Shown here: in pieces, positions 11,710 through 64,000 of the stretch
Position numbering within the stretch: position 1 is the stretch's first letter
How the letters are laid out: every line of letters begins with the position of its first letter
From: a virus
IMG/VR virus record: IMGVR_UViG_3300036768_001490
Location: 118,720 to 182,719 of that record
Strand: one strand, 5' to 3'
DNA: 64,000 nucleotides
Program-made: the position numbers and the translations under genes
The notes under the pieces: model-generated
The model's database searches: none
The model's input: only the letters and a program-made list of their open reading frames with translations
What the model was told of the DNA's origin: nothing

Positions 11710-14577
11710 CTATACCGGGACAGGAGCGCCGGCCTGCGCCTGGGCCAGGGCCGCGTTCCCTGCCGCGCGCCGCGTCTCGTTGCGCTTCTGCGCCATGCGA
11801 TCCTTGACCATCCCGTGCAAGGCCAGGTTGTACTGCTTGAGCTTGCGCAGCTCGCTGTCCTTGACCGACTCGGGCAAGGACAATAACTCGGTCGCCAGGC
11901 TGTCGGCCACGGACAGCATGTCCTCGGGCGACTGGGGCACGTTGGGCGGCACCGAGGCCAGGTAGGCCGTCACGGGGCCCTGGCCCGTCATGGCGCCCAC
12001 CATACCGCCGCCCTGAGTCGCTCCGCCCGCGTCGGGAGCCGACGCGTCCGCAGGCGCGGCACCCAGCTGACCCTTGGCCACCTGCTGGGCGAAGCCGGCC
12101 TGCTGCATCTCCTCCTGGATGCGGGACTGCATCTCGGCCTGGAAGCGGGCCTCCTCCGCGATCCGCCTCTGCTCCTTGTGCCAGTCGTAGCCCAGGTCGC
12201 GCAGCACCGTCGTGCCCGAGATCTGCTGCGACATCATGAGCTGCGCCGCCATCATCTGCTTTTCCAGGTTGTCCGCGATGGTGACACGCTTGAGCTTGGC
12301 CACAATGATCTCCCACGACATGATCTGGGAGACCTGCCGCACCAGCCATTCCAGAAAGGCGTTGGCATCATGGACCAAGTGGTGCCAGGTCGATTCGAAC
12401 AGCCGCAGCGCCACCGGCGCCGTCTGGAGCTGGAGCGAACCGTTGTACAGCTCGACCGGCGTGCCGGCGTCGTTCAATAGCACCTCGTGCCCCTGGTCCA
12501 GCAGGTCGCGCGGGGCCAGTTGATTGGCGTCGGCACCGAACACCTGAAAGTTCACCGGGAAAGGAAAGACCTGGATGGCAGCCGGGTCGCGCCGGCGGCG
12601 GCGGATCATCTGCTGCGCCATCATGCGGAAGTCATGCCCCGAGTACATCGACATGGGGTCCAGGGCCACGCCGCCCCGACTCTGACCCTGGGCCGGCGCC
12701 GGCGTGATGACGCGGAAGGGAATGACGTAGTCCAGGGCAATGGCCTCGTTGAAGCGACGCAGCACCTGCACATACCAGATCTGACGGAAGTTGGACAGGA
12801 TGCGCGGCAGGCCCCAGCCCCGCACCATGATGCCGCTCAGCGTCGGCTCCTTCATGTGAAAGATGGCGTCCGGGTTGAAGCGGTACATCTGGTTGAGGTG
12901 GACGGCCCGGATCACCTCCTTGGGAGCACGCTCCAGGTGGAACAGGTGCCCCCGGCGGACCTGCATCTTGTAATCCTCGGGGATGCGCCACAGGTAAGAA
13001 ACGTCGTCCGTGTACAGGTCGTGCAGGATCTCGATCTCGTGCGGACTCCAGACCTTGATGCGCAGCTTCTTCTCCAGGTCTTCCTGCTCGTCATGGACGA
13101 TCCAGGCCCCCGTGTAGCCGGAACCCACCTTGCAGATGGGGCAGGTGGCATGGAACTCGGGGATCTGCCAGCGGAAGGAGAAGGCCGGGTTGTTATAGAC
13201 CTCCTTGAGGACAAACGAGCTGCCGCACTTGGGGCAACGCAGGAAGCGCCGGAACGGCACCACGACGGAAGCAAAGGAGTTGCCGTAACAGTTGGACGTC
13301 AGCACGCCGTTGGCCAGGACGAAGCTGTGCGTCTCCGGCTCCACGCAACAAAAGACCTCGTCGAAGATGCCAGTACGCCGGACGGCCCGGACGCCCACAG
13401 ACATCTCGTCCGGCCGCACGGACAGGTAGCTGGTCAGGAACCTCTTCCGGTGCCTGCGCCGCAGAAAGTCCTGCGCCAGCAGGAAGGAGCGCAGGAGCGT
13501 GACGTGGTACATCCGGCCGTGGTAAGTGCCAATGCTCCCGTCCGGCCGTACGCACGGACCCACCTGGTCATGGCCATGCACGTGCCCCGCCACCATGCCG
13601 ATCCGCGGCAGCTGCTCCGCGATGGCCTCCAGCGTGGAACGCGACCGCCGCGCCAGGACCACGTGGCCGTGCTCGTCCACGGAGCCCTCCGCGGCTAGCA
13701 GGCCAGCAACGAAGCCGTACCAGTAGGAGGCGCCGCACCGCGCCGGCGGCAGCGCCTGGTAACGGGCCGGCAGGCCAGCGACCATGACCATGCCCGGGTT
13801 GCCGGGCGACTGCTGCACCACATAGCCCGCCGAGGTGAAGCGCGCCAACAGCTCGTCGTCCAGGTCCACACCGAAGCGGGCCGTGCATTGCTCGCCGTCC
13901 AGTAGCAGCAAGTAGCTGGCGCCGAAGGCCAGCCCGTGCAGCACGCCAGCGTCGAAGTCAGCGTCCTGGGGCGGCCGCGGGGCCACTGTCCGCTGGATAC
14001 GGTGGTTGCTGCTCAGCTCCGTGGTCGGCACACGGAACTCCTCTCCCACGCAGGTGTGGACGATCCACTGGTGTTCCGGCGTGGCCAGCACCACACTGCC
14101 GTCGCTAAGCTCCACCTCCAGCAGCTCCTGCTGTCCAAAGGAGTGGAAGGAGGCCGTCCGGTAGACTCCTCCCCGGGACAGCACTTCCACCGTCTGGCCC
14201 GCCAGGTCGCGCAGGCGGAAGACTCCGTCGCGCGTGACAACCTTGACGTCGCCGTGGAAGCACATGCGGTTGCGCAGCTTGTTCTGCAAGACCGTGGTGA
14301 CGTTCAGGACATCGTTGAGGAACGAGGACCACTTCTCCGTCTCCTCCTCGCTGGCGTCCGAGATGTCAATGTCGGTGAGGAAGTAGGAGATGATGCGCTC
14401 CATCGCCATGCGGTACGTGCCGAACATGGAAAAGACGTACTCGCACCAGCGCAGGGCCGAGCGCATGTTGGTCGGCACGCTCAGGCTGGCAATGTCCAGA
14501 AACGGGTCCGGGTACTGCGTGCCGCCGCCTACCCCCGAGAACTGCGAAAACTGGCTGTACAGCGCCAGCTGGCTCAT
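11710..14577 (-). CDS. Portal protein interrupted by an intein
   Basis: 955-residue precursor; after removal of the intein (residues 106-429) the spliced product is 631 residues, normal for a portal. The exteins show portal features: a helical N-terminus, a YGNSFASVVVP segment after the splice site, a wing/clip region, and a long helical C-terminus with a Gly/Ala-rich tail. Directly after the splice site lies a zinc-ribbon-like pair of C-x-x-C (Cys448/451 and Cys479/482). It would form the dodecameric DNA gate of the capsid. The start overlaps the stop of a small upstream gene (ATGA). Portal assignment rests on overall pattern and gene context rather than one diagnostic motif. Confidence 0.8.
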   Translation of the reverse strand: MSQLALYSQFSQFSGVGGGTQYPDPFLDIASLSVPTNMRSALRWCEYVFSMFGTYRMAMERIISYFLTDIDISDASEEETEKWSSFLNDVLNVTTVLQNKLRNRMCFHGDVKVVTRDGVFRLRDLAGQTVEVLSRGGVYRTASFHSFGQQELLEVELSDGSVVLATPEHQWIVHTCVGEEFRVPTTELSSNHRIQRTVAPRPPQDADFDAGVLHGLAFGASYLLLLDGEQCTARFGVDLDDELLARFTSAGYVVQQSPGNPGMVMVAGLPARYQALPPARCGASYWYGFVAGLLAAEGSVDEHGHVVLARRSRSTLEAIAEQLPRIGMVAGHVHGHDQVGPCVRPDGSIGTYHGRMYHVTLLRSFLLAQDFLRRRHRKRFLTSYLSVRPDEMSVGVRAVRRTGIFDEVFCCVEPETHSFVLANGVLTSNCYGNSFASVVVPFRRFLRCPKCGSSFVLKEVYNNPAFSFRWQIPEFHATCPICKVGSGYTGAWIVHDEQEDLEKKLRIKVWSPHEIEILHDLYTDDVSYLWRIPEDYKMQVRRGHLFHLERAPKEVIRAVHLNQMYRFNPDAIFHMKEPTLSGIMVRGWGLPRILSNFRQIWYVQVLRRFNEAIALDYVIPFRVITPAPAQGQSRGGVALDPMSMYSGHDFRMMAQQMIRRRRRDPAAIQVFPFPVNFQVFGADANQLAPRDLLDQGHEVLLNDAGTPVELYNGSLQLQTAPVALRLFESTWHHLVHDANAFLEWLVRQVSQIMSWEIIVAKLKRVTIADNLEKQMMAAQLMMSQQISGTTVLRDLGYDWHKEQRRIAEEARFQAEMQSRIQEEMQQAGFAQQVAKGQLGAAPADASAPDAGGATQGGGMVGAMTGQGPVTAYLASVPPNVPQSPEDMLSVADSLATELLSLPESVKDSELRKLKQYNLALHGMVKDRMAQKRNETRRAAGNAALAQAQAGAPVPV
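13291..14262 (-). mobile_element. Intein in the portal gene
   Basis: 324 residues with C at +1 of the intein (C-F-H-G-D-V-K-V-V), block B A-T-P-E-H-Q-W with the conserved His, block F I-F-D-E-V-F-C-C-V-E, and the block G ending V-L-T-S-N followed by extein Cys430. All splicing residues appear intact. The centre has LAGLIDADG-like segments (G-L-A-F-G-A-S-Y and V-A-G-L-L-A-A-E-G-S-V). The first lacks the expected acidic residue, so the homing endonuclease may be dead while splicing stays functional. Confidence 0.88.
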
Positions 14578-17842: not shown

Positions 17843-17906
17843 AACCTTCCCTTCCCCACCATGACTTCATCATGCACGGCACATCCGCGCATTCCTGAGC
17901 GAAAAC

Positions 17907-17940
17907 AGAAAAGGCCGGACTCCGAAGTCCGGCCTTTTCT
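17907..17940 (-). terminator. Terminator of the first MORN gene
   Basis: A perfect 15-bp stem (17907-17921 with 17926-17940) is closed by a 4-nt loop that reads UCGG on the minus strand. The transcript then enters TTCTGTTTTCG. The symmetric A/T ends make it potentially bidirectional. The same design recurs after the two other cluster I MORN genes. Confidence 0.88.
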
Positions 17941-17967
17941 GCCAGCGAAGACTACTTATCTCGCTAC

Positions 17968-19728
17968 TTACTCTCCTACAATGGGCAACTCTATCCTTAC
18001 TAGCTTGCCCATCCTATATAACTCAGACCTTCCGTCAGGGTAAACCCAGCGTCCGTGCCGCTCACCCTGACGGTAGCAGACACTCACTCCCCCTCTCGTC
18101 GTCCATCGTCCATGACGGAGGCCGTTTCGATAAGACTCCACCGGCCCTCCGGGGTACGACTCCATTCGGCCGTGGCGAAGGCCGTTGCGATAGCACTCCA
18201 CTCGCCCCGTGCAGGACACCCAACGGCCGTGGGGAAAGCCGTTGCGATAGCGCTCCACGGAGCCCCCGAAGGAAACCCAGAGGCCGTGTCTTTTGCCTCC
18301 GTTGTAGCTGCTTTGGCCCTCCGGGTCGTACCAGCGACCGTGCCACTCACCGTCGCGGTAGTGGCCGACGACGCCACGTCGGCTCCAGATCCAGCGTCCT
18401 TGCCGGAAACCGCGCCTGTAGCGGCCGTAGATTTCGCCGAAGTCTTCCACCCAGCTTCCATGCAGCTTGCCGTCGCAAACGGCGCCGAAACTTAGGCTGC
18501 AGGCCATCGCCAGGAACCTCTTCCGCTTCCTTGCCCTGCGGACCTGGCAATCCGGGTAACGACCACGGACAGCCTCAAGGAGTTCGTCCGGAGCCTCTGG
18601 CCGAAGGACGATCTCCCTGATCTCTAACTCCTCGGCTCTCAGGAAGAAATCTCCCTCTAGCCTTACCCGGCCGCTGGTCAGGCAGTGAGTGACAGCCATT
18701 TCCTGGCCGTCTTTATCACCCTCCTCTCGGGTTGGGACAGAGCTGGGGAGATACCAGCAGGCCCGCAGTCTGGGCCCGCAGTAACTCACCCCGCCTTTTT
18801 TGCTTTTTCCTGATCTTTCGGCAACCGTAACGCGGTTGCCGACGATGACGTAGTCATCGTCATAGATCGTGGGCGAAAGGGTTCCATCCCTTTGTACCAG
18901 GAACACCCTGGTACAGAGCGTCCTCCCATCTTCTCCCTTCATCCCCGGTGGGATGTTGTCACCAGAAGAGGGTGAAGGTCGTCCACTATCGAAGGACGGC
19001 GGCGGAGGGATAACATCCATCATCTCTCCGCACACGTATATCTCTGCTCTTCCGTCTGGCCACAGCCAGACGCCGTGCTCTTTCCCGTAGCGGTATTCGC
19101 CCACAAGCCCACTCGGCCACTTCCAGCGTCCGTGCCGGATGCCTTCGAAGTAGGTCTCCTGGCTCCCGTCGGGATGCCTCCAGATGCCGTGCTGCAGGCC
19201 GTAGCGGTAGCGGCCGGTGCTGCCATCGAAGAACACCCAGCGCCCATGCCGCGTAGTGCCGTTCACCACCGTGCCGTGGGTGCCATCGTCCTTGAGCACC
19301 AGCATCTTCCTCCGCTCCTGTGCCCTTCGGACCCGGCAAGCGGGGTAACGCTGCCGGACGGAATCCAGAAGCTCATCCGGAGCGTCTGGGTGCAGGACGA
19401 TCTCCTGCACCTCCATCTTCTCGGCCCGCAGACCAAGGTCTCCGACCCTGACCCGGCCCCAGGCCAGGCAGTGCATGACTGCCTCGCCTGGACCCACAGG
19501 CACCGCCCTTGGTATCCTCCAGACGGCGTGAAGCCCAGCCTCGTCCCTAACCTCTCCTCCCACGGTGAACCGGTCTGCCTCCATGCGGTGACTGATCCAC
19601 TCAGTCTTCCGCACTGGAGATACCAGGACGCCATCCCCGCGCACCCGGCAGACCCGGGTGCAACGGAGACGTCCGTCCTTGGACCTCATCCCCTCGGGGA
19701 TGATGAGAGAGTCATAGCGTTTGCTCAT
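17968..19728 (-). CDS. Double-module MORN-repeat protein (cluster I)
   Basis: 586 residues, SD GGAGGT. There are two modules in tandem. Residues ~1-150 form the family's N-terminal domain (I-P-E-G-M-R-S-K-D-G-R-L, then A-G-L-H-A-V-W, then H-C-L-A-W-G-R-V-R-V-G), followed by four ~19-residue MORN repeats of the H-G-R-W-x-x-P-D-G type. Residues ~255-420 are a diverged second copy of the domain (with R-A-C-W in place of L-H-A-V-W), followed by about eight repeats ending R-M-G-K-L-V-R. MORN_2 repeats fold as beta-hairpin strips that bind proteins or membranes; some bacterial relatives (YwqK-like) are antitoxins. The role here is unknown. Confidence 0.88.
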   Translation of the reverse strand: MSKRYDSLIIPEGMRSKDGRLRCTRVCRVRGDGVLVSPVRKTEWISHRMEADRFTVGGEVRDEAGLHAVWRIPRAVPVGPGEAVMHCLAWGRVRVGDLGLRAEKMEVQEIVLHPDAPDELLDSVRQRYPACRVRRAQERRKMLVLKDDGTHGTVVNGTTRHGRWVFFDGSTGRYRYGLQHGIWRHPDGSQETYFEGIRHGRWKWPSGLVGEYRYGKEHGVWLWPDGRAEIYVCGEMMDVIPPPPSFDSGRPSPSSGDNIPPGMKGEDGRTLCTRVFLVQRDGTLSPTIYDDDYVIVGNRVTVAERSGKSKKGGVSYCGPRLRACWYLPSSVPTREEGDKDGQEMAVTHCLTSGRVRLEGDFFLRAEELEIREIVLRPEAPDELLEAVRGRYPDCQVRRARKRKRFLAMACSLSFGAVCDGKLHGSWVEDFGEIYGRYRRGFRQGRWIWSRRGVVGHYRDGEWHGRWYDPEGQSSYNGGKRHGLWVSFGGSVERYRNGFPHGRWVSCTGRVECYRNGLRHGRMESYPGGPVESYRNGLRHGRWTTRGGVSVCYRQGERHGRWVYPDGRSELYRMGKLVRIELPIVGE

Positions 19729-19737
19729 ATCCTACCT

Positions 19738-19917
19738 CCGCTGGAGAAGCAGCTGGCTTGATAGAATTGACCAGCTTGCTTCTCCCATCACTCGTCCCAG
19801 CTGGACCATCTCCATGCTACCAGCCAGGACCATGAGAACAACCACGGCTCCGCCGTGGTGCCATAAAAACACCACCAGGAAGACCAGCTCTACCACGAGC
19901 GGATCTTCCTGGTGGTA
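19738..19917 (-). repeat. MORN leader repeat, copy 1
   Basis: A ~180-bp segment upstream of the MORN start, repeated almost unchanged upstream of two other MORN genes. It contains a 13-bp stem (19871-19883 with 19904-19916) followed on the minus strand by TTTTT, a second short hairpin (19841-19859), and, next to the start codon, a stretch whose translation, KLVNSIKPAASPAE, matches the C-terminus of cluster II MORN proteins. It is therefore a duplicated intergenic leader that includes the decayed tail of a former MORN gene. Confidence 0.8.
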
Positions 19918-19973: not shown

Positions 19974-20001
19974 AGAGGCAGGACTCCGAAGTCCTGCCTC
20001 T
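19974..20001 (-). terminator. Terminator of the second MORN gene
   Basis: A perfect 12-bp stem (19974-19985 with 19990-20001) with a UCGG loop on the minus strand is followed by CTG and a run of eleven T. It is a strong intrinsic terminator directly after the stop at 20011. Confidence 0.9.
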
Positions 20002-20010
20002 ATATGGCGT

Positions 20011-20685
20011 TTATTCCAGAACGGGCAAACCTATCCTTATAAGTTTGCCCATTTTGTAAACTTCTACCCGGCCGTCCGGGTAGGTCCATTGTCCGTGCGG
20101 TAGGTCGTAGTGGTAGCACTCAGTTCGGCCGTCGGGGTAGATCCAACGGCCATGCGGCATGTCACGACGGTAGTGTCCTACTGTACCGTCGTCACGGACC
20201 CAGCGGCCATGAAACTTGCCGTTCACCACGGTCCCGTGGCTGCCGATCTCCGTCAGGACCAGCATCCTCTTCCGCTTCCTTGCCTTGCGGACACGGCAAG
20301 CAGGGTAGCGCCGCCTGACAGCCTCCAGGATCCCGTCCAGCTCATCGTGGTGCAGGACGATCTCCTGCACCTCCATCACTTCGGCCCGAAGGCCGAAGTT
20401 CCCCACTCTGACTCGGCCCCAGGCGAGGCAGTGAAGGACCGCCATGTACGGGATCTCAGGCACTGCCCGGGGGAGCCACCAGACAGCATGCAACCCCGCC
20501 TCACCGCGCAGGCCGCCGCTGTCGTCGAAGCGGTCAGCTCTCATGCGGTTGCTGGTCCACTCCGTTCTACGGAACGGAGAGACCAGGGTGCCATCCTGGA
20601 TAACACAGCAGACCCGGCTGCAGAGGAGTCTCCCATCGCCTGACCTCATCCCGGGAGGGATGAGAATTGAATCATGGTTGTTCAT
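20011..20685 (-). CDS. Single-module MORN-repeat protein (cluster I)
   Basis: 224 residues from the ATG at 20685 (GAGGT 9 nt upstream), beginning MNNHDSILIPPGM like the cluster II members. The N-terminal domain carries A-G-L-H-A-V-W and H-C-L-A-W-G-R-V-R-V-G. It is followed by only three MORN repeats and the conserved tail M-G-K-L-I-R-I. It has its own leader copy upstream and its own terminator, so it looks like an autonomous transcription unit. It is the shortest complete member of the family in this window. Confidence 0.87.
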   Translation of the reverse strand: MNNHDSILIPPGMRSGDGRLLCSRVCCVIQDGTLVSPFRRTEWTSNRMRADRFDDSGGLRGEAGLHAVWWLPRAVPEIPYMAVLHCLAWGRVRVGNFGLRAEVMEVQEIVLHHDELDGILEAVRRRYPACRVRKARKRKRMLVLTEIGSHGTVVNGKFHGRWVRDDGTVGHYRRDMPHGRWIYPDGRTECYHYDLPHGQWTYPDGRVEVYKMGKLIRIGLPVLE

Positions 20686-20705
20686 GGGATTTACCTCGTT
20701 AGGAG

Positions 20706-20879
20706 GCATAAGCAGCTGGCTTGATAGAATTGACCAGCTGATTCTCCCATTGCTCGTCCCAGCTGGACCATCTCCATGCTACCAGCCATGACCATGAGAA
20801 CAACCACGGCTCCGCCGTGGTGCCATAAAAACACCACCAGGAAGACCAGCTCTACCACGAGCGGATCTTCCTGGTGGTG
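20706..20879 (-). repeat. MORN leader repeat, copy 2
   Basis: Nearly the same sequence as the copies at 19738 and 23190: a 14-bp stem at 20832-20845 with 20866-20879, then on the minus strand TTTTATGG, the second hairpin at 20803-20821, and the relic of a MORN C-terminus next to the SD of the gene starting at 20685. The stem plus U-run could act as a terminator or attenuator read before the MORN gene. Confidence 0.8.
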
Positions 20880-21423: not shown

Positions 21424-21460
21424 CACGCGCTGAGCATCCGCTCGTTCTCTAACGAAAAAC

Positions 21461-21494
21461 AGAAAATGCCGGACTTCGGAGTCCGGCATTTTCT
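21461..21494 (-). terminator. Terminator of the third MORN gene
   Basis: A perfect 15-bp stem (21461-21475 with 21480-21494) with a UCGG-type loop is followed on the minus strand by GTTTTTCG. Sequence and flanks are homologous to the terminator at 17907-17940. Confidence 0.88.
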
Positions 21495-21515
21495 GACAGA
21501 GAAGACTACTACTAT

Positions 21516-21582: not shown

Positions 21583-23175
21583 CTACCGTCGTTGTCCAAC
21601 TTCAGTTCCGTTTCGGTATGTCCTCACCTTCCCAGTGCATGATACCCACCTTCCGTGGGGGAGTCCGTCGATGTAGCGCTCAACAGAGCCTCCGGGCGAC
21701 ACCCAGAGTCCATGCATCTTTCCCATCCTGTAGCACTTCTGCTCTTCAGGGTATGACCACCGTCCGTGCCACTCACCGTCGCGGTAGTGGCCGACGACGC
21801 CACGTCCCCATATCCAGCGTCCGTGCCGGAGGCCGCTTCTGTAGCGGCCAAAACTGTCCCCGAAGTTCTTCATCCAGCTTCCATGCCGCTTGCCGCCGCA
21901 AACGGCACCGAAGCTGAAGCTGGCGGCCACCGCAAGGAACCTCTTCCGCTTCCGTGCCTTGCGGACCTGGCAATCCGGGTAACGACCACGGACAGCCTCA
22001 AGGAGTTCGTCCGGAGACTCTGGCCGAAGGACGATTTCCCGGATCTCCAACTCCTCTGCGCTAAGGCAGAACTTTCCTTCTATCCTGACCCGGCCGCTGG
22101 TCAGGCAGTGAGCAACTACTATTTCCTGTCCCCCCTTGTCCAACTCCTCCCTGAAAGGGACTGCGCTGGGAAGATACCAGCAGGACCGCAATAATCTGGA
22201 CCTGAAGTAATTCTTCACTCCGCCGTTAACGGAGTCGGAGTGGCTCTTGGCAACCACGCGGTTGCCAGTGGTAGTAGTTATCGTTACATCATCATCGTCA
22301 TATATCGTGGGCGAAAGGGTTCCATCCCTTTCAACCAGGAAGATCCGGGTGCAACGTATCCTCCCACCGCTTTCCTCCATCCCAGGGGGGATAATAGTGT
22401 CATCATGAGAAGATCTACCACTACCGCCTGAAGGCGGCGGAGGGATAACATCCATCATCTCTCCGCACACGTATATCTCAGACCTGCCGTCTGGCCATAG
22501 CCAGACACCATGTTCCTTACCATAACGGTAGTGGCCGACAAGGCCACTCGGCCACTTCCAGCGTCCGTGACGGATGCCTTCGAAGTAGGTCTCCTGGCTC
22601 CCGTCAGGATGTTTCCAGCGTCCGTGCATCAGGCCGTAGCGGTAGTAGCCGATGCTGCCCTCGGAGAACACCCAGCGCCCATGCCGCGTAGTGCCGCCAT
22701 TCACTGTCATCCCGTAGGTGCCATTGTCCATGAGCACCATCATCCGATTACGCTCCATTGCCCTGCGGACCCGACAAGCCGGGTACCGCAGCCGTACAGC
22801 CTCCAGGAGTTCGTCCGTCACGTCGGGGTGAAGGACTATCTTCCTCACCTCCATCACCTCGGCCCGCAGACCAAGGTCTCCGACCCTGACCCGGCCCCAG
22901 GCCAGGCAGTGCATGACGGCATGGACTGGGTTCTCGGGCACCGCCTTGGGAAGGTACCAGACAGCATGAAACCCTGCCTCATCTCGCAATTCACCTCCGT
23001 CAGAGAACCGTTCTGTCACCATTCGGTGACTATCCCAACTGGTCCCCTGGTGTGGAGAGACCAGAGTTCCGTCCCAGCTCACCCGGCAAACGCGAGTGCA
23101 GCGAAGACGGCCATCCTTGGACCTCATTCCATCAGGGATTACAAGAGAGTCATAGTTGTTGTCCTTCTTGGCCAT
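21583..23175 (-). CDS. Double-module MORN-repeat protein with truncated C-terminus (cluster I)
   Basis: 530 residues from the ATG at 23175 (GGAGG upstream; earlier in-frame codons lie in the repeated leader). The architecture copies the gene at 17968: N-terminal domain, four MORN repeats, the diverged second domain (beginning I-P-P-G-M-E-E-S-G-G-R-I) and about four to five repeats. Sequence identity to the other double-module gene is high throughout, so they are recent duplicates. The last repeats are missing because of a frameshift near 21610. It may still be functional. Confidence 0.85.
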   Translation of the reverse strand: MAKKDNNYDSLVIPDGMRSKDGRLRCTRVCRVSWDGTLVSPHQGTSWDSHRMVTERFSDGGELRDEAGFHAVWYLPKAVPENPVHAVMHCLAWGRVRVGDLGLRAEVMEVRKIVLHPDVTDELLEAVRLRYPACRVRRAMERNRMMVLMDNGTYGMTVNGGTTRHGRWVFSEGSIGYYRYGLMHGRWKHPDGSQETYFEGIRHGRWKWPSGLVGHYRYGKEHGVWLWPDGRSEIYVCGEMMDVIPPPPSGGSGRSSHDDTIIPPGMEESGGRIRCTRIFLVERDGTLSPTIYDDDDVTITTTTGNRVVAKSHSDSVNGGVKNYFRSRLLRSCWYLPSAVPFREELDKGGQEIVVAHCLTSGRVRIEGKFCLSAEELEIREIVLRPESPDELLEAVRGRYPDCQVRKARKRKRFLAVAASFSFGAVCGGKRHGSWMKNFGDSFGRYRSGLRHGRWIWGRGVVGHYRDGEWHGRWSYPEEQKCYRMGKMHGLWVSPGGSVERYIDGLPHGRWVSCTGKVRTYRNGTEVGQRR

Positions 23176-23189
23176 AGTCCACCCACCTC

Positions 23190-23370
23190 CGCCGGGAAAG
23201 CAGCTGGCTTGATAGAATTTTGACCGGATTGCTACCACCACTCGTCCCAGCTGGACCATCTCCATGCTACCAGCCAGGAGCATGATAACAACCACGGCTC
23301 CGCCGTGGTGCCTGCCATAAAAACACCACCAGGAAGATCAGCCCTACCACGAGTGGATCTTCCTGGTGGC
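23190..23370 (-). repeat. MORN leader repeat, copy 3
   Basis: The third copy of the intergenic leader: stem 23326-23339 with 23356-23369, U-run, second hairpin 23291-23309, and the relic GGTCAAAATTCTATCAAGCC next to the start. One extra T relative to copy 1 destroys the relic reading frame, which supports its being non-coding. Confidence 0.8.
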
Positions 23371-23398
23371 GGTTGAACGATAAAAAGATAGCACTTCT

Positions 23399-60957: not shown

Positions 60958-60999
60958 TCATGGTGACATGAGAGCAAAATCCAGCAGCGGAATGGTCAT
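60958..60999 (-). pseudogene. Relic of a MORN gene start
   Basis: An ATG overlapping the stop of the 424-residue MORN gene (ATGA) opens a 13-codon frame whose first bases, ATGACCATTC, equal the start of cluster II MORN genes, then diverge into a stop. It suggests that a further MORN gene once followed and was deleted. Confidence 0.5.
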
Positions 61000-62270
61000 G
61001 GAGTGTAGCTAGCTTGCTCAGGAAGGAACGACACAGGTGCAATGGTCTTGACCAGCTTGCCCGTGTCGTAGATCTCGATGCGGCCGTCCGGATAGGTCCA
61101 TTGGCCGTGCGGCAGGCCATTGCGGTAGTGACCGACGAGGCCATCCGGCCAGATACAGCGACCGTGCCTCCAACCGTTGCGGTAGTGCTCGATGCGGCCG
61201 TCCGGATAGGTCCAGAGGCCGTGCGGCCAACCGTCGCGGTAGTGCTCGACACGACCGTCCGGCCAGGTCCAGCGGCCGTGACGCTTGCCGTCGCGGAAGT
61301 GGCCGACGAGGCCGTCCGGCCAGGTCCAGCGGCCGTGCCTCCAACCGTTGCGGTAGTGCTCGACGCGGCCGTCCGGATAGGTCCATTGTCCGTGCGGCAG
61401 GCCATTGCGGTAGTGCTCGACACGGCCGTCCGGATAGGTCCAGCGGCCATGCTGCAGACCGTCGCGGTAGTGGCCGACACGGCCGTCCGGCCAGGTCCAG
61501 CGGCCGTACGGCTTGTTGCAGCGGTAGTGCTCGACACGACCACTCGGGTAAACCCAGCTGCCGTGCCACTTGCCGTCGCGGTAGTGGAAGACGCGGCCGT
61601 CCGGCCAGGTCCAGCGGCCGTGACGCTTATCGTCGCGGTAGTGGCCGATGCTGCCGTCCGGCCAGACCCAGCGGCCGTGACGCTTATCGTCACGGTAGCG
61701 CTCGACTCGGCCGTCTGGGTAGGTCCAACGGCCGTGAAGCAAACCGTCGCGGAAGTGGCAGACTGCGCCGTCTGAGCAGACCCAGCGCCCGTGCCTCCTA
61801 CCATTCAATGTCATCCCATAGCTGCCATCATCATACATCACCAGCACCCGTTCCCGCTTCCTTGCCTTGCGGACCCGGCACTCCGGGTAGCGCCGCCGGA
61901 CAGACTCCAGGACAGCTTCTGATACGTCTGGATGCAGAACGATCTCCTGCACCTCCATCACCTCGGACCGCAGGCCGAGGTTGCCGACCCGGACCCTGCC
62001 GGAGGCAAGGCAGTGCATGACTGCCATATATGGATCTCCAGGCACTGCCCTGGGAAGCCTCCAGACCGCATGCAACCCTGCCTCATTGCGCAGTTCCCCA
62101 CCATCCGAGAACCGGTTAGCCGTCATGCGATGACTGGTCCATTCAGTGTACCGGTGGGGAGAGATCAGGGTGCCATCCTCAAGCACCCGGCAGACACGGC
62201 TACAGAGAAGGCGGCCATCGTCAGACCTCATCCCGGGAGGAATGAGGATGGAATCCGAATGGATGGTCAT
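60996..62270 (-). CDS. MORN protein with 13 repeats (cluster II)
   Basis: 424 residues. The ATG at 62270 lies 4 bp after the upstream MORN stop, implying coupling. The N-terminal domain (I-L-I-P-P-G-M-R-S-D-D-G-R-L, then A-G-L-H-A-V-W-R-L-P-R-A-V, then H-C-L-A-S-G-R-V-R-V-G) spans ~1-150. Thirteen MORN repeats of exactly 19 residues follow, most reading H-G-R-W-T-Y-P-D-G-R-V-E-H-Y-R-N-G with two variable residues. The 57-bp DNA units are almost identical, a sign of recent expansion. It ends in a short hydrophobic tail. Likely a protein- or membrane-binding scaffold; function unknown. Confidence 0.9.
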   Translation of the reverse strand: MTIHSDSILIPPGMRSDDGRLLCSRVCRVLEDGTLISPHRYTEWTSHRMTANRFSDGGELRNEAGLHAVWRLPRAVPGDPYMAVMHCLASGRVRVGNLGLRSEVMEVQEIVLHPDVSEAVLESVRRRYPECRVRKARKRERVLVMYDDGSYGMTLNGRRHGRWVCSDGAVCHFRDGLLHGRWTYPDGRVERYRDDKRHGRWVWPDGSIGHYRDDKRHGRWTWPDGRVFHYRDGKWHGSWVYPSGRVEHYRCNKPYGRWTWPDGRVGHYRDGLQHGRWTYPDGRVEHYRNGLPHGQWTYPDGRVEHYRNGWRHGRWTWPDGLVGHFRDGKRHGRWTWPDGRVEHYRDGWPHGLWTYPDGRIEHYRNGWRHGRCIWPDGLVGHYRNGLPHGQWTYPDGRIEIYDTGKLVKTIAPVSFLPEQASYTP

Positions 62271-62274
62271 GGTA

Positions 62275-63066
62275 TCACTCAGCTGGGGAAACAGCTGGCA
62301 CGATAGACTTGACCAGCTTGTCCGTGTCGTAAACTTCGATGCGGCCGTCCGGGTAAACCCAGTGCCCGTGCTTCTTGCCGTAACGGTAGCGCTCGATGCG
62401 GCCGTCCGGATAGGTCCAACGGCCGTGAGGCAAGTCGTCACGGTAGCACTCGATGCTGCCGTCCGGCCAGGTCCAGCGCCCGTGTTTCTTGCCGTAGCGG
62501 TAATGGCCGATGCAGCCGTTCGGCCAGGTCCAGCGGCCGTGTTTCTTGCCGTCGCGGTAATGGCCGACTGCGCCGTCTGAGCAGACCCATCGTCCATGCC
62601 GAGCGCCATTCACTGTCATCCCATAGCTGCCACTATCCGCCAGAACCAGCATCCGCTTCCTTGACTTGCGGACCCGACACTCCGGGTAGCGCCGCCGGAC
62701 AGACTCCAGGACTCCGTCTAATACGTCTGGGTGCAGGACAATCTCCCGCACTTCCATCACCTCGGACCGCAGGCCGAGGTCTCCGACCCGGACCCTGCCG
62801 GAGGCCAGGCAGTGAAGGACGGCCTCGTTCGCCGCACTGGGCACAGCGCGAGGCAAGTGCCAGACCGCATGCAACCCTGCCTCATTGCGCAGCTCCACAC
62901 CATCGGTGAACCGGTCAGCCGTCATGCGATGACTGGTCCACTCAGTTCCACGGTAGGGAGAGATCAGGGCACCATCCTCGCGCACCCGGCATACACGGCT
63001 GCAGAGAAGGCGGCCATCGTCAGATCTCATCCCCGGAGGGATGAGGATGGAATCATGGTTGTTCAT
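62275..63066 (-). CDS. MORN protein with 5 repeats (cluster II)
   Basis: 263 residues. ATG 4 bp after the upstream MORN stop (TGATACCATG). Same N-terminal domain as the neighbours, more than 80 % identical by eye, then five 19-residue repeats and the tail V-K-S-I-V-P-A-V-S-P-A-E. The tail is shared with the next gene and recognisable in the cluster I leader relics. Part of a polycistronic run of MORN genes without terminators between them. Confidence 0.9.
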   Translation of the reverse strand: MNNHDSILIPPGMRSDDGRLLCSRVCRVREDGALISPYRGTEWTSHRMTADRFTDGVELRNEAGLHAVWHLPRAVPSAANEAVLHCLASGRVRVGDLGLRSEVMEVREIVLHPDVLDGVLESVRRRYPECRVRKSRKRMLVLADSGSYGMTVNGARHGRWVCSDGAVGHYRDGKKHGRWTWPNGCIGHYRYGKKHGRWTWPDGSIECYRDDLPHGRWTYPDGRIERYRYGKKHGHWVYPDGRIEVYDTDKLVKSIVPAVSPAE

Positions 63067-63070
63067 GGTA

Positions 63071-63871
63071 TCACTCAGCTGGGGAAACAGCTGGCACGAT
63101 AGACTTGACCATCTTGTCCGTGTCGTAAACTTCGATGCGGCCGTCCGGGTAAACCCAGCGCCCGTGCTTCTTGCCGTAACGGTAGCGCTCGACGCGGCCG
63201 TTCGGCCAGACCCAGCGGCCGTGCAGCAGGCCGTAGCGGTAGTGGCCGATGCGTCCGTCAGGCCAGGTCCAGCGGCCGTGCAGCAAGCCGTTGCGGTAGC
63301 GCTCGATGCGACCGTCCGGATAGGTCCATCGGCCGTGCGACTTGTTGCAGCGGTAATGGCGGACTGTGCCGTCTGAGCAGAACCAGCGCCCGTGCAAAAG
63401 GCCATTCACTGTCATCCCATAGCTGCCAACATCCGTCAGCATCAGCATCCTCTTCCTCTTCAGTTCCCTGCGGACCTGACACTCCGGGTAGCGCCTCCTA
63501 ACAGACTCCAGGACCACTTCTGATACGTCTGGGTGCAGGACAATCTCCCGCACTTCCATCACCTCGGCACGCAGGCCGAGGTTGCCGACCCGGACCTGTC
63601 CCGAGGCAAGGCAGTGCATGACTGCCATATGTGGATTTTCAGGTGTAGCACCTGGGATCCTCCAGACCGCATGCAACCCTGCCTCATTGCGCAGCTCACC
63701 ATCAACGGTGAACCGGTTAGCCGTCATACGGTGACTGGTCCACTCAGTTCCACGGTAGGGAGAGATCAGGGTGCCATCCTTGCGCACCCGGCAGACCCGG
63801 CTACAGAGAAGGCAACCATCGTCGGACCTCATCCCGGGAGGGATGAGGATGGAATCCGAATGGATGGTCAT
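63071..63871 (-). CDS. MORN protein with 5 repeats (cluster II)
   Basis: 266 residues, GAGGT 8 nt upstream of the ATG at 63871. N-terminal domain as in its neighbours with a few substitutions (R-R-E-L-K-R-K-R-M before the array), then five repeats and the same C-terminal tail as the gene at 62275. Its start overlaps the out-of-frame end of the next, partial MORN gene. Confidence 0.9.
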   Translation of the reverse strand: MTIHSDSILIPPGMRSDDGCLLCSRVCRVRKDGTLISPYRGTEWTSHRMTANRFTVDGELRNEAGLHAVWRIPGATPENPHMAVMHCLASGQVRVGNLGLRAEVMEVREIVLHPDVSEVVLESVRRRYPECQVRRELKRKRMLMLTDVGSYGMTVNGLLHGRWFCSDGTVRHYRCNKSHGRWTYPDGRIERYRNGLLHGRWTWPDGRIGHYRYGLLHGRWVWPNGRVERYRYGKKHGRWVYPDGRIEVYDTDKMVKSIVPAVSPAE

Positions 63872-64000
63872 GAGCTGTAACCTCGTTAGAAGAAACAGCT
63901 GGCTCGATAGACTTGACCAGCTTGCCCATGTCGTAGATCTCGATACGGCCGTCCGGATAGGTCCAGCGGCCGTGTTTATTGCCGTCGCGGTAGTGGCCTA
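63801..64000 (-). CDS. C-terminal end of a further MORN gene (partial)
   Basis: The frame entering from the right edge reads G-H-Y-R-D-G-N-K-H-G-R-W-T-Y-P-D-G-R-I-E, the last MORN repeat, then M-G-K-L-V-K-S-I-E-P-A-V-S. Unlike its neighbours it has lost the usual stop and reads about 25 codons into the next gene before TAG at 63801. It shows that cluster II continues beyond the window. Confidence 0.8.
   Translation of the reverse strand, partial: GHYRDGNKHGRWTYPDGRIEIYDMGKLVKSIEPAVSSNEVTAHDHPFGFHPHPSRDEVRRWLPSL

Follow-up and report, generated by a model that had tools for sequence, protein, structure and literature searches.

A large uncultured phage encodes a family of proteins in which a virus GxHA-type domain is followed by MORN-like repeats, a variant of an already known architecture. 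Judged by its sequences, this is a genuine phage gene family with a narrow distribution. The window, which is the whole stretch of 64 kb that was analysed, runs from base 118720 to base 182719 of a virus record of 182,719 b. It forms the final part of the phage's contig, and its right edge is the contig end. The contig contains seven genes of the family (13 matching stretches) with eight complete N-terminal domains (N-domains). Members F, E, and G make up cluster 1 (17.9-23.2 kb), and members A-D form an array at the contig end. The first-pass annotation had described a tandem family of three complete genes and one partial gene, with three more at 17.9-23.2 kb, and all of these were found. The total coding length is about 7 kb, somewhat less than the roughly 8 kb that had been allotted to the family. 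The members are as follows.

17968..19728, minus strand: member F, 586 aa; N-domain, ~4 repeats, divergent second N-domain, ~8 repeats
20011..20685, minus strand: member E, 224 aa; N-domain and 3 repeats
21583..23175, minus strand: member G, 530 aa; N-domain, ~4 repeats, divergent second N-domain, ~5 repeats
60996..62270, minus strand: member A, 424 aa; one N-domain and 13 repeats of 19 residues
62275..63066, minus strand: member B, 263 aa; N-domain and ~5 repeats
63071..63871, minus strand: member C, 266 aa; N-domain and ~5 repeats
63801..63998, minus strand: member D, incomplete at the contig end; a fourth array gene of which only the final repeats and the tail are present

The open frame of member D overlaps the start of member C, with 72% identity over the last 36 residues. 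The mechanically listed ORF of member A (60996-62609) begins about 340 nt ahead of the family start at 62270, and the ATG at 23175 is the likely start of member G. The B-A and C-B junctions read ...GCTGAGTGATACCATGA..., a form from which array genes C, B, and A are probably cotranscribed. Member-versus-member E-values within the contig reach 1e-138, and the domains are about 46-81% identical to the reference domain over ~150 residues, which excludes chance resemblance. Among the motifs by which the domain had originally been marked, I-P-x-G-M and H-C-L-[AT]-x-G-[RQ]-V-R hardly vary, and 26 positions are invariant across all 11 aligned domains. The GLHAVW-type motif is retained in first-type N-domains but is missing from the second domains. 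A, B, C, and E have one N-domain each, whereas F and G carry it twice. Their second copies are about 45-48% identical to the reference, lack GLHA, and form a separate, well-supported branch in the tree.

By sequence comparison, the large phage has no close sequenced kin, since its polymerase shares only about 21-24% identity with known phages among the matches listed. The GC content is 65%, and the minus strand carries nearly all genes. The record encodes a fusion of UDG with a family-A DNA polymerase, thymidylate synthase, a UvsX-like protein, RNA polymerase beta-like proteins, a class II-like ribonucleotide reductase, a Ro60/TROVE protein, and, among the contig's other repeat proteins, a collagen-repeat protein (L011:8719-11508). 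tRNA genes were not found in the record. The two neighbouring RNA polymerase beta-like proteins (L015:4382-11222; 584 and 1684 aa) represent a phage-encoded multisubunit RNA polymerase, and their nearest matches are in Salmonella phage Arash and Vibrio phages D69, D181, and D148. The Ro60/TROVE protein (L017:2660-4345) is 36% identical over its full length to its counterpart in Myxococcus phage Mx1. Kinship between the two phages was rejected, as this gene alone is in common at a detectable level. A 955-aa protein at window positions 11710-14577 has weak LAGLIDADG and intein-splicing matches (residues ~148-427) and is possibly an intein-bearing phage protein. The recognisable genes of the window serve mostly DNA metabolism. 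The genes adjoining the family members are uncharacterised, so the large-phage context tells little about the role of the family.

The repeat unit has 19 residues, HGxWxxPDGxxxxYRxGxx, and forms a tandem array with a period of 57 nt at the DNA level. In single-domain genes, the units occur 3-13 in a row, in agreement with the first-pass annotation. Its assignment of these units to the MORN type needs qualification, because the best MORN (PF02493) score is 10.9 against a cut-off of 22.5 bits. The G-box profile Tcp10_C (PF07202) scores 38.6 in member A against a gathering score of 36 bits, and the other members fall below. MORN_2 (PF07661) has no match in the record or in Pfam scans of single members, with control genomes equally silent. 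Structure prediction of a complete member, which had been suggested at the outset, gave a confident AlphaFold model for member B (pLDDT 86, pTM 0.74). The predicted repeats form an antiparallel ladder of two-stranded beta-hairpins as in solved MORN proteins. With the full model, Foldseek retrieved ciliary MORN proteins and the CPAP G-box (5e-6, 1.3e-4), SET7/9, and giant-virus MORN proteins (down to 7.6e-10). The family repeats are a compact MORN/G-box-like unit, a shortened form of MORN and probably not MORN_2.

The N-domain was assigned to no family by Pfam, NCBIfam, PHROGs, or PADLOC searches, and in this respect it is unnamed, as initially claimed. It is probably not an entirely new domain but one distantly related, at the level of the fold, to virus domains of the DUF7666/RIIB-C type. 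The N-domain was modelled with AlphaFold (pLDDT 82, pTM 0.81). Foldseek searches with this domain alone retrieved an uncharacterised Caudovirales protein (4.2e-6), Streptomyces phage BRock gp216 (8.2e-4, TMq 0.59; named gp216 here by its length of 237 aa), DUF7666 proteins (2.7e-3 and 1.3e-2, probability about 1, TMq 0.36-0.46), and a pentapeptide-repeat phage protein (9.3e-3). Several RIIB proteins matched weakly (0.05-0.9), and giant-virus ankyrin and DUF4116 proteins were also matched.

Profile-profile scores, which were judged against column shuffles, link these domains stepwise through gp216. The DUF7666 members were verified by Pfam, and the gp216 family was recovered. The N-domain scores 26.2 against gp216 (shuffle maximum 20.7, n=150), or 29.1 with more sequences (shuffle maximum 25.2, n=100), and gp216 scores 27.5 against DUF7666 (shuffle maximum 24.5, n=100). 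DUF7666 scores 20.5 against T4 RIIB-C, which is equalled by 1/100 shuffles. The direct score between the N-domain and DUF7666 is 18.8, also equalled by 1/100 shuffles, and that between the N-domain and RIIB is nil. HHalign probabilities across these comparisons are low, 3-33%. The kinship is therefore a chain of weak but consistent links, short of a proven family assignment, and the RIIB C-terminal part may be a distant cousin of the N-domain. Membership of DUF7666 by direct sequence was rejected, as PF24703 has no match in any member and the direct profile comparison is poor (probability 2.8). DUF5758 (PF19062), which was considered for its GxH motif, has no match in the record. A hand-written actinobacterial 'CGIYA' consensus found nothing in plasmids and phages. 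Another viral contig encodes a divergent gp216-type protein (L043:1501-1827; CICGFYGYYTPR...GTKGFRAEKLRLVAL) that is intermediate for the GxHA/GIYA domain. A literature search on DUF7666 returned no paper.

A search of 2.9 million viral contigs yielded only four that are related. A 177-kb contig from another dataset is 100% identical over the 16 kb compared, cluster 1 included, and is apparently the same virus. It holds the only other copy of cluster 1 and, by its coordinates, stops just before the array. The contig analysed here ends within this repeat-rich array, where there is probably an assembly break and where further copies may be present. The other three relatives, from the same two metagenome datasets, are two contigs of ~17-20 kb (99.98% identical) and one 18-kb relative. 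Except for the family genes, these small-phage contigs (GC 57-58%) have no blastn-detectable DNA in common with the window. They carry PDDEXK, AAA_24, DUF669, and DnaN genes, and their AAA protein is 49% identical to Synechococcus-phage proteins. In two small phages, the family gene is located between the PDDEXK/AAA_24/DUF669 genes and DnaN, that is, in a replication/recombination module. L024 has one member ahead of DnaN, and L018 has the orthologue and a second member in between. In the tree, this second L018 copy groups with the large-phage copies and not with its own neighbour, although its exact position is unresolved, and it shares 74% DNA identity with member A. This clustering and identity are most simply explained by movement of the family gene from one phage to an unrelated one. 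In the small phage, the recombination genes adjoin a long region of low complexity (L024:1362-3773), in which more than one phase is open (AWLGLAG..., HAKPRPA...).

No relatives were found by tblastn in characterised phages. In a scan of cellular genomes from 84,980 species, none of the 53 N-domain pattern hits and none of the 97 repeat pattern hits was confirmed; these scans rely on conserved short peptides, which distant cellular relatives could escape.

The cluster-1 genes E, F, and G have a common structured 5' leader of ~170 nt, which the first-pass annotation had not reported. Terminator-like hairpins are located downstream of the same genes.

19729..19916, minus strand: 5' leader of F; 15-bp hairpin with T-run and two more hairpins; 97% identical to the E leader
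20686..20878, minus strand: 5' leader of E; same element as the F leader
23176..23372, minus strand: 5' leader of G; same element, 88% identical
19974..20001, minus strand: terminator-like hairpin with T-run, downstream of E
21460..21495, minus strand: 16-bp terminator-like hairpin with T-run, downstream of G; copy downstream of F at 17906-17941

In the leader, a 15-bp hairpin (ACCACCAGGAAGATC...GATCTTCCTGGTGGT, or GGTCTTCC...) is followed by GTTTTTAT, CACCACGGCGGAGCCGTGG, and a third hairpin. It folds more stably than shuffled sequences, with energies lower by ~7 standard deviations (z about -7). Between E and F, the leader is 97% identical, whereas the first 450 coding bases are 71% identical. 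For G against E/F, the respective values are 88% and 71-77%. The 3' arm GGTGGTG is also able to pair with CACCAC downstream, and does so in one of the folds predicted for the G leader. Because this arm has an alternative partner, the leader is possibly an attenuator with a terminator/anti-terminator switch. Recent gene conversion is a possible alternative explanation for the leader identity. Towards its end, the leader is similar to the 3' ends of array genes, which suggests that cluster 1 was derived from a tandem array. The 33-base core of the leader was found in no viral contig besides that of the identical phage, and Rfam gave only sub-threshold matches in the leader region. Sigma-70-type promoters were not found near the family genes. 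The downstream hairpins are only suggestive as terminators, since the total of such sites is near the shuffled mean.

The N-domains are under purifying selection. Pairwise dN/dS is mostly 0.2-0.4, with a maximum of 0.61, in simple Nei-Gojobori counts that are saturated for distant pairs. With these values, the set, which the first-pass annotation had called diversifying, is constrained and not visibly so, and diversifying selection was rejected. No reverse transcriptase (RVT_1) was found in the 182,719-b record, which may be incomplete, and this argues against a diversity-generating retroelement. In codon adaptation, the members rank around or under the bottom decile of the phage's genes, to which repeat composition may contribute.

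We tentatively favour the reading that the family members are phage-specific, intracellular, non-virion early adaptors for host takeover or counter-defence, in which we infer the early expression, the binding role, and the host or defence targets. The N-terminal beta domain of ~150 residues, of the broad DUF7666/gp216/RIIB-C type, would be the constant part. The elongated ladder of 19-residue hairpins would provide a surface for protein-protein interaction. Several copies with different arm lengths would be kept because their partners, from the host or a competitor, would differ from copy to copy, and binding would most plausibly block a defence or redirect a host complex. The early, non-virion role is suggested by the placement in the replication module of the small phages, and the adaptor layout by the variable-length ladder on a constant N-domain. 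Two further points argue for this reading. In other viruses, domains of related fold are joined to repeats of the collagen, pentapeptide, ankyrin, or MORN type, and divergent rII/RIIB homologues counter RexAB exclusion (PMC11879866). However, the lack of diversifying selection counts against fast-evolving partners, which would predict it. PADLOC and NCBIfam gave nothing on the members. A stronger version, which we regard as unlikely, is an undescribed multi-copy system of counter-defence or host takeover, in which each adaptor would neutralise another host factor and the mutually exclusive hairpins of the cluster-1 leader RNA may switch expression.

MORN proteins were once thought to be membrane scaffolds, and RIIA/RIIB are thought to be such. 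The MORN-type ladder and the faint fold link of the N-domain to RIIB leave a small chance that the family members are membrane- or lipid-associated scaffolds organising the infected cell, for example its replication compartment, envelope integrity, or lysis timing. However, RIIB (phrog_609) has no match in the record, and no transmembrane-like stretch was seen by eye in the members. Furthermore, MORN repeats are protein-protein modules and not membrane modules, and TbMORN1 showed no binding to vesicles or membranes, either in vitro or in vivo (PMC7725318).

The low codon adaptation, the apparent transfer between phages, and the variable repeat number would also fit a selfish or drifting passenger family, whose repeat-rich genes duplicate and spread by recombination with little selected function otherwise. 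This is quite unlikely, as purifying selection on the N-domains and the strong conservation of the leader indicate that something is selected, and no mobile-element gene was identified beside the members. The N-domain might also have belonged to a characterised family with a housekeeping virion role, a possibility raised in the first-pass annotation, but no such family was found. Virion components (fibre, capsid decoration, or injected proteins) would have a parallel in the other repeat proteins of the contig, such as the collagen-repeat protein. They are nonetheless a distinctly improbable explanation, because the small-phage gene sits in the replication/recombination module next to DnaN and the recognisable genes of the large-phage window serve mainly DNA metabolism. 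YwqK-type antitoxins that neutralise host toxins, to which the MORN-like repeats bear only a loose resemblance, are highly improbable, because the kinship first proposed through MORN_2 found no PF07661 match (the controls being silent too) and no PADLOC match, the repeat length of 19 differs, an extra N-domain is present, and no toxin gene was recognised alongside.

In tailed phages as in giant viruses, fusions of DUF7666-like domains with repeats occur repeatedly, and no function has been assigned to them. To our knowledge, the rII genes are mechanistically still not understood decades after their discovery. A phage with at least seven such genes, one apparently exchanged and three behind a common leader, is a natural test bed for what this architecture binds.

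The gp216 family (BRock, GiJojo, LuckySocke, and pSt2308; unannotated) has the predicted N-domain fold in common with the family, and its motifs follow the same order, with ILIP near the start, GIYA/GLHA, and then SG[RK][VI]xxGxxG[FL]R[AS]E. However, gp216 lacks MORN repeats, has another C-terminal tail, and is ~22% identical in the profile alignment. The DUF7666 proteins (PF24703) of phages and giant viruses are matched in fold searches and have an N-terminal GFHA-type domain, which is followed by collagen repeats in some phages. Among the matches to the complete model with its repeats was a DUF7666 protein of Hyperionvirus, but DUF7666 proteins differ in their C-terminal parts, and the direct PF24703 match is lacking. 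The C-terminal part of T4-type RIIB (GLHVC motif) has weak fold matches to the N-domain, whereas RIIB has N-terminal helix-turn-helix matches and no MORN ladder. By the crystal-based definition, the MORN unit has 23 residues with GxG and YEGEW motifs (PMC7725318). The family unit shares with MORN and the G-box the beta-hairpin ladder, the conserved first glycine, and aromatic residues, but has 19 residues, GxW in which W replaces the second glycine, and a two-residue turn. Most distinctive of the family are this compact 19-residue repeat, the double-domain paralogues, the apparent exchange between phages, and a leader that is more conserved than its genes.
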